Positions 23,810 through 29,511 of a DNA stretch of 64,000 bases are shown one piece after another. Position numbers and translations under genes: made by a program. Position 1 is the stretch's first letter, and each line of letters opens with the position of its first letter. Origin of the DNA: a virus; IMG/VR virus record IMGVR_UViG_3300009130_000021, positions 1-64,000 of that record, one strand, 5' to 3'. The notes under the pieces are model-generated. The model was not told the DNA's origin. It did not search any database and saw only the letters and a program-made list of their open reading frames with translations.

Positions 23810-25672
23810 ATGTCAAAAAACATAGACGATAAGTACACTAAACTCACTGACCGAGAACATGTACTAAGAAGACCTGGAATGTATATTGGATCTACTGCTT
23901 CTCATACTGATGAGTTAGAAGTATTTGACGGAGATCTTATACATCAAAGAAAAGTAACTTACAATCCTGGTTTCATTAAGATATTTGATGAAGTTGTTTC
24001 AAACTCAGTAGATGAGCATAAAAGAAACAAGAAACTTAATGAGATCAAGGTAACAGTTAATTTAGATACATCTGAGATCATTATTTTAGACAATGGTGGT
24101 ATACCTGTTAAGAAACATACGCAACATAAAGAGTGGATCCCAGAAATGATCTTCTCTAATCTTAGAGCAGGATCTAACTTCGATGATACTAAAGATCGTG
24201 ACGTAGCAGGAACCAATGGTGTAGGTGCAACATTAACAAATATCTACAGTACAAAGTTTTCTATTAGCACTTGTGATGGAACTGATAAGTTCGATCAAAC
24301 ATTTAGTAATAACATGGCTAAGAGAACTACTCCTAAGATTTCTAAATCAGCAAAGGGATTTACTAAGATTTCTTATTTTCCTGATCTTGCCAGATTTAAA
24401 ATGAAATTTATTGGAAAAGATTCTCATGACATGATGTTTAAGAGATGTCTTGATATTGCAGCATGTAATCCAAGACTATATGTTACTTTTATAAGCATTG
24501 AAGGAGGAAAGAAAAAGTCCACAAAGTTAAAGTTTAAAGACTTTAGGCAATATGTTGAAATGTATAATCCAGGTGAATTCTTCTACGAATCATCTAAGGA
24601 TTTTAAAATAGCAATAGCAGGATCTCATTCTGGATTTAAGAATACTAGCTTTGTAAACTCAGTTCATACTAAAGATGGAGGTACTCATGTTGACTATATT
24701 GCAAATCAACTTATATCTCAGCTTCGTGAAATGATTCATAAGAAGCACAAGATTCAAGTTAAGCCTAGTGATATTAGAAACCATTTACATATATTCATTG
24801 ATTGTACTGTAGTTAACCCTGCATTCTCATCTCAAACTAAAGAGAAATTAATTACTGAGCATAAGTTATTTAAAACAGAACATACTGTTACTGAAAAGAT
24901 TGCTAAAGAAGTATTCGGATCAGAAGTTATTAAGACTGTTTTAGACTGGGTTGAAAAGAAAGCACTCGCTGCTGAAAGAGCAGAGCTTAGAAAACTTAAT
25001 AAAGCTCTTGATAAAGGTAGAGTTAAGAAATTAATTGATGCTCAAAAGAAAGGTGATCGTAGAAAATGTATCTTAGGGATATACGAGGGAGACTCTGCTA
25101 CATCAGCTGTTCGTAAGTTTAGAGATACTCAAACAATGGGAGCTTTTCCTTTAAAAGGTAAGTTTATTAATGTTCATGAATTACCTAATTCTAGAGTAAT
25201 CAATAACGAAGAGGTTAAAGGATTAATGGGATCTCTTGGTCTTAAACTAGGAGAAGATCCTAAAGGATTAAGATACGGTAAGATTTATATCTATACTGAT
25301 GCGGATCCAGATGGTAATAGTATCGCAGCTCAGTTAATTAACTTCTTTGCTAAATACTGGCCTGAATTATTTAAAATAGGAATGGTCTATAAAGTAATGA
25401 CTCCTTTAGTTGTTGCTAGTAAAGGATCTAAAGTTATAAAGTTATACACTAATTCAGAACTAGAAGAGTTTGTTGATAAACAAGGAGCTAGAATTTCTGG
25501 TTGGAATATGGAATATAAAAAAGGATTAGCATCTTTAACAGATTCTGAATACAACGAAATAATTAAGGATCCTAAATTAGTTAGAATTTCTTTAGGCGAT
25601 GATTACAAAGAAGGTTTAGAAGACTGGTTTGGTAGAGATTCTCAACCTAGAAAAGATAAATTATTGAAGTAA
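23810..25672 (+). CDS. 39: type II topoisomerase large subunit (T4 gp39+gp60, GyrB-like)
   Basis: This is the ATPase and Toprim subunit. The 620 residues combine what T4 encodes as gp39 (516) and gp60 (160). The GHKL ATPase shows DEVVSNSVDEHKRN, LDNGGIPV and VAGTNGVGATLTN. The transducer domain follows, and the Toprim metal site is at E426 (EGDSA) and the DADPDG cluster beginning at D497. The start is 9 bases after the helicase stop and the small subunit follows 1 base later. Confidence 0.93.
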   Translation: MSKNIDDKYTKLTDREHVLRRPGMYIGSTASHTDELEVFDGDLIHQRKVTYNPGFIKIFDEVVSNSVDEHKRNKKLNEIKVTVNLDTSEIIILDNGGIPVKKHTQHKEWIPEMIFSNLRAGSNFDDTKDRDVAGTNGVGATLTNIYSTKFSISTCDGTDKFDQTFSNNMAKRTTPKISKSAKGFTKISYFPDLARFKMKFIGKDSHDMMFKRCLDIAACNPRLYVTFISIEGGKKKSTKLKFKDFRQYVEMYNPGEFFYESSKDFKIAIAGSHSGFKNTSFVNSVHTKDGGTHVDYIANQLISQLREMIHKKHKIQVKPSDIRNHLHIFIDCTVVNPAFSSQTKEKLITEHKLFKTEHTVTEKIAKEVFGSEVIKTVLDWVEKKALAAERAELRKLNKALDKGRVKKLIDAQKKGDRRKCILGIYEGDSATSAVRKFRDTQTMGAFPLKGKFINVHELPNSRVINNEEVKGLMGSLGLKLGEDPKGLRYGKIYIYTDADPDGNSIAAQLINFFAKYWPELFKIGMVYKVMTPLVVASKGSKVIKLYTNSELEEFVDKQGARISGWNMEYKKGLASLTDSEYNEIIKDPKLVRISLGDDYKEGLEDWFGRDSQPRKDKLLK

Positions 25673-25673
25673 T

Positions 25674-26207
25674 ATGGAAAATTCAACGATATCTCAATAT
25701 TTAGATAACGATTATAAAGAATACGCAAAGTACGTTATTGAAAGTAGAGCAATTCCTTCAGTTATTGATGGATTAAAGCCTACTCAAAGAAAAGTAGTAC
25801 ATGCTTCTAATAAACATTGGAGAAACGATTCAGTTAAACCAATGAAAGTATATCAATTAGGAGGTAAGATTGCAGCTGAAGTAAATTACCACCATGGGGA
25901 CTGCCTAGATCCTAATACTGAGATATTATTATCAGATGGGACTATCGTTACTATTAAAGATTGGTATGATAACTATAAAGAAGTGAAATTAAAAGTGTTA
26001 TCGTATGACGAAGAGTCTAAAAAATTCGTAGAAGCAGTTGGCCACTCTCCTAGAATAGGAAGCATTACCGATTTAGAATATGAAATAGAAATGGAGGACG
26101 GAAGTATCTTTAAATGTACTGAAAATCACCCATTCTTAACTAATAGGGGATGGATTGAAGCTAAAGATTTAACTGAAGATGATGACATAATACAGGTAAA
26201 ATCATAA
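25674..26207 (+). CDS. 52N: topoisomerase gp52 N-extein (76 aa) fused to N-terminal split intein
   Basis: Residues 1-76 match the start of T4 gp52 (ESRAIPSVIDGLKPTQRKVV, ending AAEVNYHHGD). From Cys77 the sequence becomes an intein N-part of 101 residues: block A CLDPNTEILLSDG, block B FKCTENHPFLT, and ends VKS then stop. The insertion is in the highly conserved GyrA motif around HGD, the kind of site inteins favour. The matching C-intein is at 27181, across an endonuclease gene. Protein trans-splicing should restore a subunit of about 450 residues, close to T4 gp52 at 442. Confidence 0.93.
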   Translation: MENSTISQYLDNDYKEYAKYVIESRAIPSVIDGLKPTQRKVVHASNKHWRNDSVKPMKVYQLGGKIAAEVNYHHGDCLDPNTEILLSDGTIVTIKDWYDNYKEVKLKVLSYDEESKKFVEAVGHSPRIGSITDLEYEIEMEDGSIFKCTENHPFLTNRGWIEAKDLTEDDDIIQVKS

Positions 26208-26233
26208 AACATCACCAAGATGATATAATGGCT

Positions 26234-26250
26234 TTATAAATAAAAATAAA
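26234..26250 (+). promoter_or_regulatory. late-type promoter of homing endonuclease
   Basis: TTATAAATAAAAATAAA lies 5 bases before the endonuclease ATG at 26256. The other endonuclease gene here (48742) has a near-identical element. Late promoters before homing endonucleases are known in T4. Confidence 0.65.
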
Positions 26251-26255
26251 GCGTT

Positions 26256-27191
26256 ATGTTAAAATGTAAAAAGTGCGGCTCTAGTTTTGAAAACAGTAAA
26301 TATTTAAATATCAATAGATATAATAATCCTGATAAGTATTTGCATACGTGCAAAGAATGTAGAAAACTAAAAAAATGTAAAAATTGTAATATTGAATTTA
26401 AACATCATCAGAATATAACATGCTCTAAAAAATGTGCAGAAGAGCTTAAGAAGAAAACCTATATGAAATCTCAAGGAACTCCTCATAATTTTTCAAAAAA
26501 CTCAAAGTCTAGGCTTAAATTTGAAAAAACTTTAGTTGAAAATGAAGGGATTAATAATGTGTTTCAAAGAGAATCTGTAAAAAAATCTATTGAGCAGACT
26601 ATAGTGAAAAGATATGGAGTAGACAATATATCTAAATCTAATGAAATTAAAAAGAAAAAGAAAATAACTTTAAAGAATACATTGTCTAAAAATCCAAACT
26701 TATTTAAGGAAAAATGGTGGAATCTTCATGATAATTTTATTAGAGAATTAGGATACGACCCAAGATTAGGTGTATTAGGAAAAGCTTCAATTGAATCATT
26801 ATCGATATTCAATAAAATTATTCAGTATTGTTATGATATTGGAATTAAAGATGAGGATATATACATAGGAATAGATGATAAATCTGAATATTTCATAAAC
26901 ACTGGAACTAAAACGTATTTTTATGATTTTTGTATAAGATCTAAAAAGATTATTATAGAATACCACGGTATCGGATTTCATGCCAATCCTAATTGGGATA
27001 CTAATAAACTAAATGAGTGGAGATCAGTTTTCACAAATGAAACAAGCAGAGAAAACATTAGAAAAACTAAAATTAAAAATAATGCTGCTATTAAAAAAGG
27101 GTTCAAGATCCTAGAGATATGGGGAGATTGCGATATAGATGAGAATATAAAAAAATGTAATAATTTTATAAAAGATAATTATGAAAATTAA
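26256..27191 (+). CDS. free-standing homing endonuclease, Vsr-like (EDxHD-type), within split-intein locus
   Basis: The 311 residues have N-terminal zinc-finger-like cysteines (CKKC, CKEC, CKNC, CSKKC within 1-60) and a basic repeat region with ENEGINNVFQ and KRYGVDNISKS, typical of DNA-binding parts of phage endonucleases. A Vsr-like nuclease domain follows with E180 (ASIES), D224 (FYDFCI), E235 and H237 (IIEYHG), H242 and a final KGFKILEIWGD. This resembles the EDxHD family described for fractured genes with split inteins in metagenomes. It has its own late-type promoter and overlaps the C-intein start by 11 bases. It presumably cleaves the uninterrupted gp52 gene to spread the locus. Confidence 0.85.
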   Translation: MLKCKKCGSSFENSKYLNINRYNNPDKYLHTCKECRKLKKCKNCNIEFKHHQNITCSKKCAEELKKKTYMKSQGTPHNFSKNSKSRLKFEKTLVENEGINNVFQRESVKKSIEQTIVKRYGVDNISKSNEIKKKKKITLKNTLSKNPNLFKEKWWNLHDNFIRELGYDPRLGVLGKASIESLSIFNKIIQYCYDIGIKDEDIYIGIDDKSEYFINTGTKTYFYDFCIRSKKIIIEYHGIGFHANPNWDTNKLNEWRSVFTNETSRENIRKTKIKNNAAIKKGFKILEIWGDCDIDENIKKCNNFIKDNYEN

Positions 27192-28425
27192 ATCAATAAA
27201 AGTTAATAAGCTAGATTCTAAAAAGAATTTCTATGATATAACAGTCGATAAGCATCATAATTTTGTTATAGGCATGAAATCTAAGATTGTTACCCACAAT
27301 TCAAGTATGAACTCTGCTATTATTGGTATGGCGCAAAAGTTTAAGAACTCTATGCCTCTTTTAGAGGAAATAGGACAATTTGGATCTCTTAGGGCTCCTG
27401 ATGCAGGTGCACCTAGATATATTTCAACTAAACTTCATAAGAACTTTAGATTATTATATAAGGACTTCGAGCTATTAAATCCTAGATTTGAAGAGGGTAA
27501 TGAGATTGAACCTGATTACTTTCTTCCAATAATACCTACAGTTTTATTAAATGGAAGCTCTGGTATTGCCGTAGGGTTCGCTACTAACATTCTAAATAGA
27601 AATCCTTTAGATCTTATTAACTGCTGTTTAAAAGAATTGGAAGGTAAATCATTTAAAGAGCCTATTCCATGGGTTCATGGATTTACTGGAACATGTACTA
27701 AGCAAGAAGATACTCAAGGATCTTGGACATTTAGAGGTAAATTTGAAGTTAAGAATACTACAACAGTAGAAGTATCTGAATTGCCTCCATCAATTACTTA
27801 CTTAAAGTACGATGACTATTTAAATGGTCTTGAAGATACTAGAAAACTTACTTCTTATGATAACAATTGTAAATCTGACGTAAACTATGTTTTGAAATTT
27901 ACCAGAGCCAACTTAGCGGAATTGGTAAAGAAAAACAGGCTCGTTCGATTCCTTAAAATGGAAGAGCGCCAAACTGAAAACTTTACAGTATTAGACGAGA
28001 ACGGTAAACTTAAGATATTTAACGATTCTACTGAAATCATAAAGTATTTTGTTAACTTTAGACTTAAGTTCTACGATAAAAGAAAAAGATTCCTTATTGA
28101 TCAATTAACTAAGGTATTAACAGTTCTTTCTAATAAGGCTAAATTTATTAAAATGATAATTGAAAATAAGCTTAAAGTAAATAACGTACCAAAAGCAGAT
28201 ATTATCAAATCTTTAGAATCTAAAGGATTCGATAAAGTAGATGGATCTTTTTCTTACTTATTAAATATGGCAATTCATTCCCTTACTAAAGAGAGATATG
28301 AAGATTTATTGAAACAAGTAGGAGACAAGAAAGAAGAATTAAAAGTAATTAAAGGCACTAAGCCATCTGATATGTATAAGAAGGACTTAGAGGATCTTAA
28401 AAAAGCAATTAGAAAAGAATATTAA
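27181..28425 (+). CDS. 52C: C-terminal split intein (40 aa) fused to topoisomerase gp52 C-extein
   Basis: Residues 1-40 are a C-intein: block F NFYDITVDKHHNFVIG and block G SKIVTHN, ending in Asn40 before Ser41 as the +1 nucleophile. Residues 41-414 continue gp52: SSMNSAIIGMAQKFK, GQFGSLRAPDAGAPRYIS with the catalytic Tyr80 (116 in the spliced product), FLPIIPTVLLNGSSGIAVG and a C-terminal helical part. Because the active-site tyrosine is here and part of the DNA gate is in the other fragment, activity should depend on trans-splicing. Confidence 0.93.
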   Translation: MKIKSIKVNKLDSKKNFYDITVDKHHNFVIGMKSKIVTHNSSMNSAIIGMAQKFKNSMPLLEEIGQFGSLRAPDAGAPRYISTKLHKNFRLLYKDFELLNPRFEEGNEIEPDYFLPIIPTVLLNGSSGIAVGFATNILNRNPLDLINCCLKELEGKSFKEPIPWVHGFTGTCTKQEDTQGSWTFRGKFEVKNTTTVEVSELPPSITYLKYDDYLNGLEDTRKLTSYDNNCKSDVNYVLKFTRANLAELVKKNRLVRFLKMEERQTENFTVLDENGKLKIFNDSTEIIKYFVNFRLKFYDKRKRFLIDQLTKVLTVLSNKAKFIKMIIENKLKVNNVPKADIIKSLESKGFDKVDGSFSYLLNMAIHSLTKERYEDLLKQVGDKKEELKVIKGTKPSDMYKKDLEDLKKAIRKEY

Positions 28426-28426
28426 T

Positions 28427-28642
28427 ATGGAAGATAAAGAAAAATACGAAGAAATAGACGTAAGTAAGCCAGAGGAAAATTATTTTCAAGCAAATCCTGC
28501 TAAATTCTATAAATTAGATATTAGCAAAGTGAAAACAGTTAAGCATGTCGTTAGAGTATTAGATGCTTTTGGAATGAAAGTAATGGAAGGATCTGAAGCT
28601 TACGAAAAGATAAAAGATCTATTAATTGAAGATGAACAATAG
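28427..28642 (+). CDS. small hypothetical protein downstream of gp52
   Basis: This 71-residue charged protein contains KTVKHVVRVLDAFGMKVMEG, an amphipathic stretch. It lies one base after gp52 and overlaps the next small gene by 11 bases. No family recognised. Confidence 0.65.
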   Translation: MEDKEKYEEIDVSKPEENYFQANPAKFYKLDISKVKTVKHVVRVLDAFGMKVMEGSEAYEKIKDLLIEDEQ

Positions 28643-28754
28643 CGACGTAATAGTAATATGTTCCAATTGTGGAAAGACTAAGCTTAAATGGGAGACTGTA
28701 TGTCCTCATTGTAAAGATGTGGACGAAAGTTCTATAAAAGCTAACAAGAAGTAG
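28632..28754 (+). CDS. tiny zinc-ribbon protein, 40 aa
   Basis: A 40-residue frame carries two CxxC pairs (ICSNCGK and VCPHCKD), a minimal zinc ribbon. The ATG overlaps the end of the preceding gene, which supports coupling. Such proteins often bind nucleic acid; its actual role is unknown. Confidence 0.6.
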   Translation: MNNSDVIVICSNCGKTKLKWETVCPHCKDVDESSIKANKK

Positions 28755-28759
28755 TATAA

Positions 28760-28767
28760 TATAAATA
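28760..28767 (+). promoter_or_regulatory. exact T4 late box TATAAATA before an RNA-like segment
   Basis: TATAAATA lies just after the zinc-ribbon stop and immediately before the structured non-coding segment 28768-28900. Confidence 0.45.
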
Positions 28768-28900
28768 TACATACGGTAATACCCTAAGAAATAGGATTAA
28801 GAAAGTTCTCAGAAAATGAGGTAAAGCCTATGTACGATAACCTTAAAAGGCTCGTGCAGGTCGCTGTCAGAATAGGAACGGAAGCGGTAAAGACACATCT
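28768..28900 (+). ncRNA. candidate structured RNA
   Basis: This 180-base gap between coding regions (28755-28934) is visibly richer in G and C than its surroundings. It contains nested complementarities: UACAUA (28768) with UAUGUA (28829), hairpins CCUA/UAGG (28783/28792), CUCA/UGAG (28808/28817) and CCUU/AAGG (28841/28847), and CGCU/AGCG (28862/28883). A late-type box precedes it. It matches no RNA class I recognise and lacks a tRNA T-loop. T4 also makes small stable RNAs of unclear function. Confidence 0.45.
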
Positions 28901-28934
28901 TTCAAAACCTAAGTGTATATTTTATATTTTTACT

Positions 28935-29129
28935 ATGGAAGCAAAAACAATAAACGATTTCATTAAAGAGCTTCAATCTATAAGCGAAGACAAAAGAAAT
29001 CTACCTCTTATTATACAATGTCCGAACGGACTAGAAGTATACCCCTCAATTAAAATGAAATTTGAAAATTATGGATCTCCTCTTTTAGGTGATAAATTGG
29101 AGTCTATGATGATAACTTGGAAAGATTAA
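28935..29129 (+). CDS. small hypothetical protein, 64 aa
   Basis: I choose the ATG at 28935 (EAKTINDFIKELQSI) rather than an upstream in-frame ATG at 28830, because the longer version would translate the structured RNA-like segment into an atypical sequence. The 64 residues look like a small alpha/beta protein. The next gene begins 4 bases later. Function unknown. Confidence 0.6.
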   Translation: MEAKTINDFIKELQSISEDKRNLPLIIQCPNGLEVYPSIKMKFENYGSPLLGDKLESMMITWKD

Positions 29130-29133
29130 TATT

Positions 29134-29511
29134 ATGAAAGGAGCAGAATTAGCGCCACTTTTTGAAACTGGTCAGTATGGTAGATTATACATTACTTCTA
29201 GTAGTCATGCAAGAGGAAAGACTTTAAGAATTCAAGTTCTACCTGAAGGACAAAAAGCAAAACCTAACGGATCTGTTAATTTATGTACTAATAAAGATGC
29301 AGTTCTAGTATATGGAGTAGTTGCAGGTAATCCAGGATGGACTGAAGAATATGGATGGTTACATCATGGACCGTGGAAAGACGATTTCCATAATCTAGTT
29401 AAAGAAAAGCAAGAAGCTTTAGAAAAAGATAAACTAGAAAGAGAAGCTAGGAAAAAGGCTAAAGCTGAAAAAGAAGAAAATCGAATTAATAATTTATTAT
29501 CTAACTATTAA
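29134..29511 (+). CDS. hypothetical protein with basic coiled-coil tail
   Basis: The 125 residues have an N-terminal compact domain (ELAPLFETGQYGRLYITSSS, EYGWLHHGPWKDD) and a C-terminal Lys/Glu-rich helix (about 88-118). It lies in a run of tightly packed small + strand genes. No known family. Confidence 0.65.
   Translation: MKGAELAPLFETGQYGRLYITSSSHARGKTLRIQVLPEGQKAKPNGSVNLCTNKDAVLVYGVVAGNPGWTEEYGWLHHGPWKDDFHNLVKEKQEALEKDKLEREARKKAKAEKEENRINNLLSNY

Follow-up and report, generated by a model that had tools for sequence, protein, structure and literature searches.

A putative trans-splicing split intein with a free-standing Vsr-like nuclease gene in a phage topoisomerase gp52 gene

How can a phage make an uninterrupted topoisomerase subunit when the gene for it lies in two pieces with another gene between them? 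This question is raised by gp52, the medium subunit of a type II topoisomerase, in a 64,000-nt stretch of viral DNA (positions 1 to 64,000 of the IMG/VR record IMGVR_UViG_3300009130_000021; the whole stretch is called the window here). The two half-genes each carry part of an intein and flank a free-standing nuclease gene (Table 1). The answer that is favoured here, at a probability of about 0.88, is that a composite selfish element occupies the Asp76/Ser77 position of gp52, that its intein halves splice in trans, and that its nuclease homes and later decays. The half-genes would be translated separately, after which the N-intein (101 aa) and the C-intein (40 aa) would associate and splice, ligating gp52 residues 1-76 to residues 77-450 to give an uninterrupted medium subunit. 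During co-infection the nuclease would cut empty gp52 alleles near the same site, and double-strand-break repair would copy the whole cassette into the recipient, together with a few 3' extein bases among which is the Ser+1 codon. In an allele already occupied the nuclease would be expendable and decay, whereas gp52 could be made only with both intein halves, which would keep the gene split. From the sequence we infer splicing, cleavage and homing; the element is real, mobile and very probably functional, and while its class is known, its host gene is new.

The first-pass annotation of this DNA had described gp52 as broken by a split intein with a free-standing Vsr-like nuclease, inserted in the HGD motif of a type II topoisomerase, and on these points profiles, structure comparison and relatives agree. 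All lengths (76, 101, 311 and 40 residues) and coordinates given there hold, and the position of the interruption, Asp76/Ser77 in the HGD motif of the medium subunit, is borne out by a break in the profile as well as by relatives in which exactly this site is empty. DNA_topoisoIV (PF00521) matches the two halves, and each of the matches breaks off at profile position 50, where the junction lies. Both exteins align to uninterrupted gp52 across the junction and the catalytic Tyr is present, which places the protein among type IIA medium subunits; the uninterrupted relative L040 (L numbers denote the loci compared) gave matches to TOP2 and to 8ylu, a solved medium subunit of the phage type. The word 'broken' is nevertheless misleading: the gene is split in two, but full gp52 is most likely restored by trans-splicing. 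The same arrangement recurs in independent contigs and in the GenBank huge phage LR756500.1, which excludes an assembly artefact, and chance is excluded because intein profiles above cut-off occur together with DNA_topoisoIV on both halves. What had been called a complete locus in a genomic context is thus a real arrangement, but its source is itself metagenomic and not an isolate genome, since the window belongs to a 70,795-bp uncultivated virus record. A group I or group II intron at the gp52 site was rejected, as no Rfam match was obtained at E<=0.1 in 24500-29500.

The splicing motifs that had been pointed out earlier (Cys1, intact blocks A and B, VTHN and Ser) are all intact; they lie in profile matches above cut-off and are invariant in relatives. 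The N-intein scored 51 bits with TIGR01445 intein_Nterm (cut-off 24.5) and the C-intein 24 bits with TIGR01443 intein_Cterm (cut-off 15.6). C1, T73 and H76 of the N-intein are invariant in eight sequences, and so are D19, H39, N40 of the C-intein and the +1 residue S41 in the same-site relatives. An N-terminal nucleophile, a block B TxxH, a block F Asp, a C-terminal His-Asn and Ser+1 are all found, as in inteins (HINT), and the halves are separate ORFs (open reading frames) with their own stop and start and a nuclease gene between them, as in fractured genes. In the comparison with known split inteins that had been proposed, the solved structure that the N-intein family matched best was that of NrdJ-1, a natural split intein (8UBS, 5e-8). 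The ratio of non-synonymous to synonymous substitution (dN/dS) between the window and L082 or L026 was 0.16 and 0.12, respectively, for the N-intein, and 0.065 for the C-intein. In two closer pairs it was 0.15-0.16 for the nuclease, and for the N-intein 0.17 in one and 0.49 in the other. These ratios indicate that both intein halves are under purifying selection.

For the nuclease, structure comparison was chosen because the sequence-profile search against the PDB reached Vsr as its best match only at a weak E of 0.27-0.35; the NCBIfam vsr match had an E of 0.0067. The AlphaFold model has a predicted confidence (pLDDT) of 76-94 over most of residues 181-310, with one block at 66. Its top three Foldseek matches in the PDB were 1cw0 and 1vsr, both Escherichia coli Vsr, and 3r3p, the catalytic domain of the homing endonuclease I-Bth0305I (probability 0.97-0.98, with E-values of only 0.03-0.07). 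The viral models that it matched include proteins annotated as homing endonucleases and one from Aeromonas phage Aes123, a putative Vsr endonuclease. Residues E211, D224, E235 and H242 do not vary among eight relatives. A Vsr-like catalytic fold is thus supported by the model.

Uninterrupted gp52, which the earlier annotation had suggested looking for in relatives, was found when IMG/VR was scanned with the C-terminal part of gp52: of 77 loci, 72 carry both gp52 parts joined exactly at the Asp76/Ser77 site. The nearest of these to the window, L040, is 89% and 80% identical to the two gp52 parts. Occupied loci were sought by scanning with gp52, with the N-intein, with the junction of gp52 and intein and with the nuclease, and 18 distinct sequences were obtained, the window and 17 others. 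L007 and L008, with the same match coordinates and near-identical scores, were counted once, and so were L108 (a 429-kb contig) and L096 (LR756500.1), which have gp52 halves, nuclease and intein in common. The gene is split and the Vsr-type nuclease intact in the window, L007, L026, L078, L081, L085, L096, L106 and L196. Apart from L106, in which the match to the C-terminal half lies in two frames, all relatives examined have open gp52 halves. At the YHPHGD/C site of cellular gyrase and topoisomerase IV, a search of about 85,000 genomes for that exact peptide gave 38 pattern matches; 2 of the 38 are GyrA/ParC-like by translation and both are uninterrupted, so that an intein at this cellular site was rejected.

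The residue that follows the insertion point differs between the two states. By direct reading it is Ser in 18/18 occupied alleles and in 11/72 empty ones, the others being Gly (32), Thr (27) and Ala (2); with the 11 occupied alleles then known and the 72 empty ones, Fisher's test gave p 4e-8. L026, which is occupied, has a gp52 almost identical to that of the empty L027 or L031. Directly 3' of the insertion 7/15 bases differ between L026 and L027 against 13/1086 beyond (p=1.2e-9), and no 15-nt window further downstream has more than 3 differences. On the upstream side there is no cluster (5 changes/240 bp). The change from L027 to L026 is GGA AGC TTA AAT to TCA TCA TTG AGT, by which Gly+1 becomes Ser. 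Gly is the likely earlier state, since the empty relatives L010, L016, L019, L025, L027, L031 and L076 have it, and the switch from AGC to TCA, from one Ser codon family to the other, speaks for the exchange of a short tract and against point mutation for function. A second pair, L052 and the empty L042, shows Thr replaced by Ser with 8/15 changes against 162/1086 beyond (p 7e-4). This points to an element that brings its own splicing nucleophile, the Ser+1 codon, into the recipient, and the 3' footprint is compatible with a nuclease that would cleave empty alleles where the insertion lies. In an alignment with human TOP2A the +1 residue falls directly after HHGE, a position that corresponds to Ser83 of GyrA in the quinolone site; the element is therefore located in one of the most constrained spots of the enzyme.

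That the cassette moves as one DNA unit was observed in one pair of relatives, contigs 3300027976_000150 and 3300035698_021020. Their 1,410-bp inserts are identical at 1285/1410 nt (91.1%), whereas the flanking gp52 is identical at 438/615 (71.2%; Fisher p=1.5e-28). The contrast extends to third codon positions, where identity is 91% in the intein and 45% in gp52, which means that constraint on the intein protein does not account for it. Because the shift in identity is located at the splice codons on both edges, the N-intein, spacer, nuclease and C-intein must have moved together; the spacer is 98% identical in the two copies. On the gp52 tree, which was made before the last seven loci were added and in which the L096 row is one Ser codon short, the occupied state is scattered and requires 8 changes, at least 6 of them forced by well-supported branches. 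The gp52 of L107 is about 30% identical to the others, its N-intein mostly 46-56%.

In five loci the nuclease is decayed or deleted and the gene is still split. L052 keeps a Cys-rich stub of about 43 residues, L105 has lost the first ~134 residues and has a frameshift, L201 and L202 contain fragments, and in L204 about the last 40 codons remain. A diverged gp52 lineage (L107, L202, L203 and L205) has the N-terminal nuclease region in common with the window, and in it the Vsr-type catalytic domain is replaced; the nuclease is intact in L107, L203 and L205. This other domain is probably HNH-like, to judge from a reading of its motifs and from a relative in a Klebsiella phage that weakly matches endonuclease VII, the L107 model being poor (pLDDT 46). 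At L197 gp52 is a contiguous ORF with a mini-intein of 144 residues, which on the intein tree falls among the Vsr-type split rows with a support of 89/93, under the star level of the tool. When all split rows were held together, the approximately unbiased (AU) test gave p 0.035 with the long-branch row L052 and 0.24 without it. As the constraint is rejected only with L052, re-fusion is possible, and L197 has perhaps been re-fused from a split form or is perhaps ancestral. Fragments like the N-terminal half of the window nuclease adjoin this gene on the opposite strand (L197:3028-3570, minus strand). That this one site displays the whole life cycle of a split intein, from the empty state through invasion with two nucleases (a shared targeting domain with different catalytic domains) and nuclease loss to re-fusion in L197, is a tentative proposal, rather doubtful as a whole.

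The start codon of the C-half lies inside the nuclease gene of the window, overlapping its stop by 11 bp, and in nearly all copies that keep the nuclease the two overlap or abut. This suggests that translation of the C-half is coupled to the nuclease gene. The late-type promoter of its own that had been ascribed to the nuclease was not upheld as a T4-type signal: TATAAATA is present at 26235, but with 17 occurrences in the window against 17.6 expected it stands at chance level. Another motif, ATAAATAATAAAAA, has 12 exact copies in the window and 30 with <=2 mismatches against 12.3 expected. Of these 30 exact or near matches 14 lie <=40 nt upstream of a listed start, often 10-16 nt, and the genes concerned include those for the tail sheath and the head protease. 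It may be a promoter or leader motif of the phage. As the nuclease gene has a copy with 2 mismatches, a promoter of its own is possible.

Table 1. Features of the split gp52 locus and of its surroundings in the window
Feature	Position	Strand	Remarks
Topoisomerase II large subunit (gp39-like), uninterrupted	23810-25672	+	single ORF; PHROG_543 3.6e-188; immediately 5' of gp52
gp52 N-extein, residues 1-76	25674-25901	+	YHHGD at end; PF00521 1.1e-13, PHROG_551 1e-24
N-intein, 101 aa	25902-26204	+	Cys1 25902-25904; block B T73-x-x-H76 26118-26129; TIGR01445 2.2e-13
Stop of N-half, TAA	26205-26207	+	
Spacer between N-half and nuclease gene	26208-26255	+	AT-rich promoter-like motif TATAAATAAAAATAAA at 26235-26250, putative function
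Free-standing homing endonuclease gene, 311 aa, predicted Vsr/EDxHD fold	26256-27191	+	Foldseek; invariant E211, D224, E235, H242
Nuclease N-terminal Cys-rich/DUF7487 region, probable DNA-targeting part	26256-26795	+	PF24308 1.6e-5, slightly under Pfam cut-off
Nuclease C-terminal catalytic domain, confidently modelled	26796-27188	+	pLDDT; Foldseek
C-intein, 40 aa (MKIK...VTHN), own ATG	27181-27300	+	block F Asp19; block G His39-Asn40 27295-27300; TIGR01443 3.2e-5
gp52 C-extein, 374 aa	27301-28425	+	Ser+1 27301-27303; catalytic Tyr 27418-27420 (GAPRY); PF00521 2.7e-69, PHROG_551 5.8e-112
ATAAATAATAAAAA, positions include	238, 8031(-), 22132(-), 33958(-), 41723(-), 48156(-), 49641, 56226(-), 61365		

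An intergenic stretch 3' of gp52 (window 28765-28935) has an 8-bp closing helix, AUAUACAU/AUGUAUAU, with a stability z of -0.88, which is not significant. Similar DNA was found only beside L040 among the loci compared, and Rfam, ARAGORN and folding gave no explanation for this region.

The recurrent junction of nuclease stop and C-half start, the promoter-like motif in the spacer and the retention of the split after nuclease loss could also be taken to mean that the intein has been domesticated, its split and the overlap timing topoisomerase activity during infection and mobility being secondary. This is unlikely, as presence is patchy (18 distinct occupied sequences, 72 empty loci), the whole cassette was transferred recently and closely related alleles (L027 and L031) are empty, which shows that the host gene can do without the element. 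Separately translated pieces of topoisomerase and of ribonucleotide reductase can function in phages. It is therefore conceivable that the gp52 fragments assemble non-covalently, like T4-type gp39/gp60 or phage NrdA (the latter cited in PMC3322345 and PMC10448857), and that the intein halves are vestigial. The catalytic intein residues and Ser+1 are, however, all kept in the occupied alleles examined, both halves appear to be under purifying selection, the inteins outlast the loss of the nuclease in L052 and L204, and the split falls close to the catalytic Tyr, in the core that cleaves DNA; function in pieces without splicing is on these grounds quite improbable.

It is more improbable still that the insertion has killed gp52 and that the phage depends on another topoisomerase. 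The coding sequence is in fact interrupted, and a second copy might exist outside the fragment that the record represents; but the gp39 partner is intact immediately upstream, the C-terminal gp52 half of the window differs from that of L026 by a dN of 0.16 at a dS of 2.1, and open halves are the rule among relatives, bar L106. Some observations weigh against the mobile trans-splicing element itself. Strong differences in the first bases were seen in just two intein/empty pairs (p=1e-9 and 7e-4), and L040, the pair nearest to the window, has Ser+1 already and no footprint. The N-intein ratio of 0.49 comes from the pair L026/L078, in which changes are few. After H242 the eight relatives have no invariant Asp, the last residue of the literal EDxHD set, which makes that motif no more than putative here.

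So far, split inteins with a separate nuclease have been met mostly as fragments or as tools of biotechnology, and their movement and the persistence of the split have been little tested. At the gp52 site empty, occupied, decayed and contiguous alleles can be compared, a series of evolutionary states that is unusually complete. The site provides evidence at the DNA level that a split cassette travels as one unit and carries the residue needed for splicing. Since it carries Ser+1, the cassette could enter Gly+1 or Ala+1 alleles that would otherwise bar splicing. Besides, the family is a source of natural split pairs for work on trans-splicing, about a dozen diverged ones with an N-part of 98-112 and a C-part of 38-41 residues.

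The closest known systems are the fractured genes of Dassa et al. (2009), gp41-1, gp41-8, NrdJ-1, IMPDH-1 and NrdA-2, which are reported from phage-like metagenome sequence as split inteins accompanied by free-standing endonuclease genes. They have in common with the present locus two half-genes, N- and C-inteins of similar size and a nuclease gene between them; here the host gene is that of the topoisomerase II medium subunit, and several occupancy states of one site stand side by side. The fractured genes are cited in PMC7090010 and PMC10448857. A split intein in phage gp52 was not recognised in the open-access literature searched, though Dassa et al. (2009) and Taylor et al. (2011) might mention the site, which appears to be new for this class. 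With I-Bth0305I, the EDxHD enzymes and Vsr the likeness is in the predicted catalytic domain, and the L107/L202/L203/L205 lineage has the HNH-like domain instead. In the haloarchaeal MCM-d intein, Pro+1 blocks splicing and must be co-converted to Ser for invasion (PMC10643990). In both cases the empty allele has a +1 residue that does not permit splicing, and the invaded allele has Ser in its place; MCM-d is contiguous with an internal endonuclease domain, whereas the present intein is split, has a separate nuclease gene, occurs in phages and shows Gly or Thr replaced by Ser.

Further split genes were found among the loci compared. The large topoisomerase subunit of LR756500.1 (L096:1-3371) is split too, by a different intein pair (EGL/CLEEN..., ...SHN/S) with a nuclease-like ORF between, so that both subunits are fractured there. 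In L086:3074-6222 an NrdA fragment opens with a C-intein and closes with an N-intein, which means that the enzyme is seemingly encoded in at least 3 pieces; its second gap holds a nuclease related to that of the window (36% over the core). In Klebsiella phage KP13-7 (L188:1969-7499) nrdA is annotated in two parts with five unnamed ORFs between, of which one ends N-intein-like and one is a nuclease like that of L107. As in gp52 an N-intein stands at the fragment end with other ORFs after it; the host gene is another one. The UvsW gene of Salmonella phage S16, a cultured phage and possible laboratory model (L189:2314-5040), is likewise split, with the nuclease-like gp114.1 between the parts and a C-intein that ends AHN/C. 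Its N-intein, 42% identical to that of the window, closes one fragment and is followed by other ORFs, and the C-intein opens the next fragment; it differs in its host gene, in the +1 Cys and in the nuclease-like ORF (PHROG_22417/15427).

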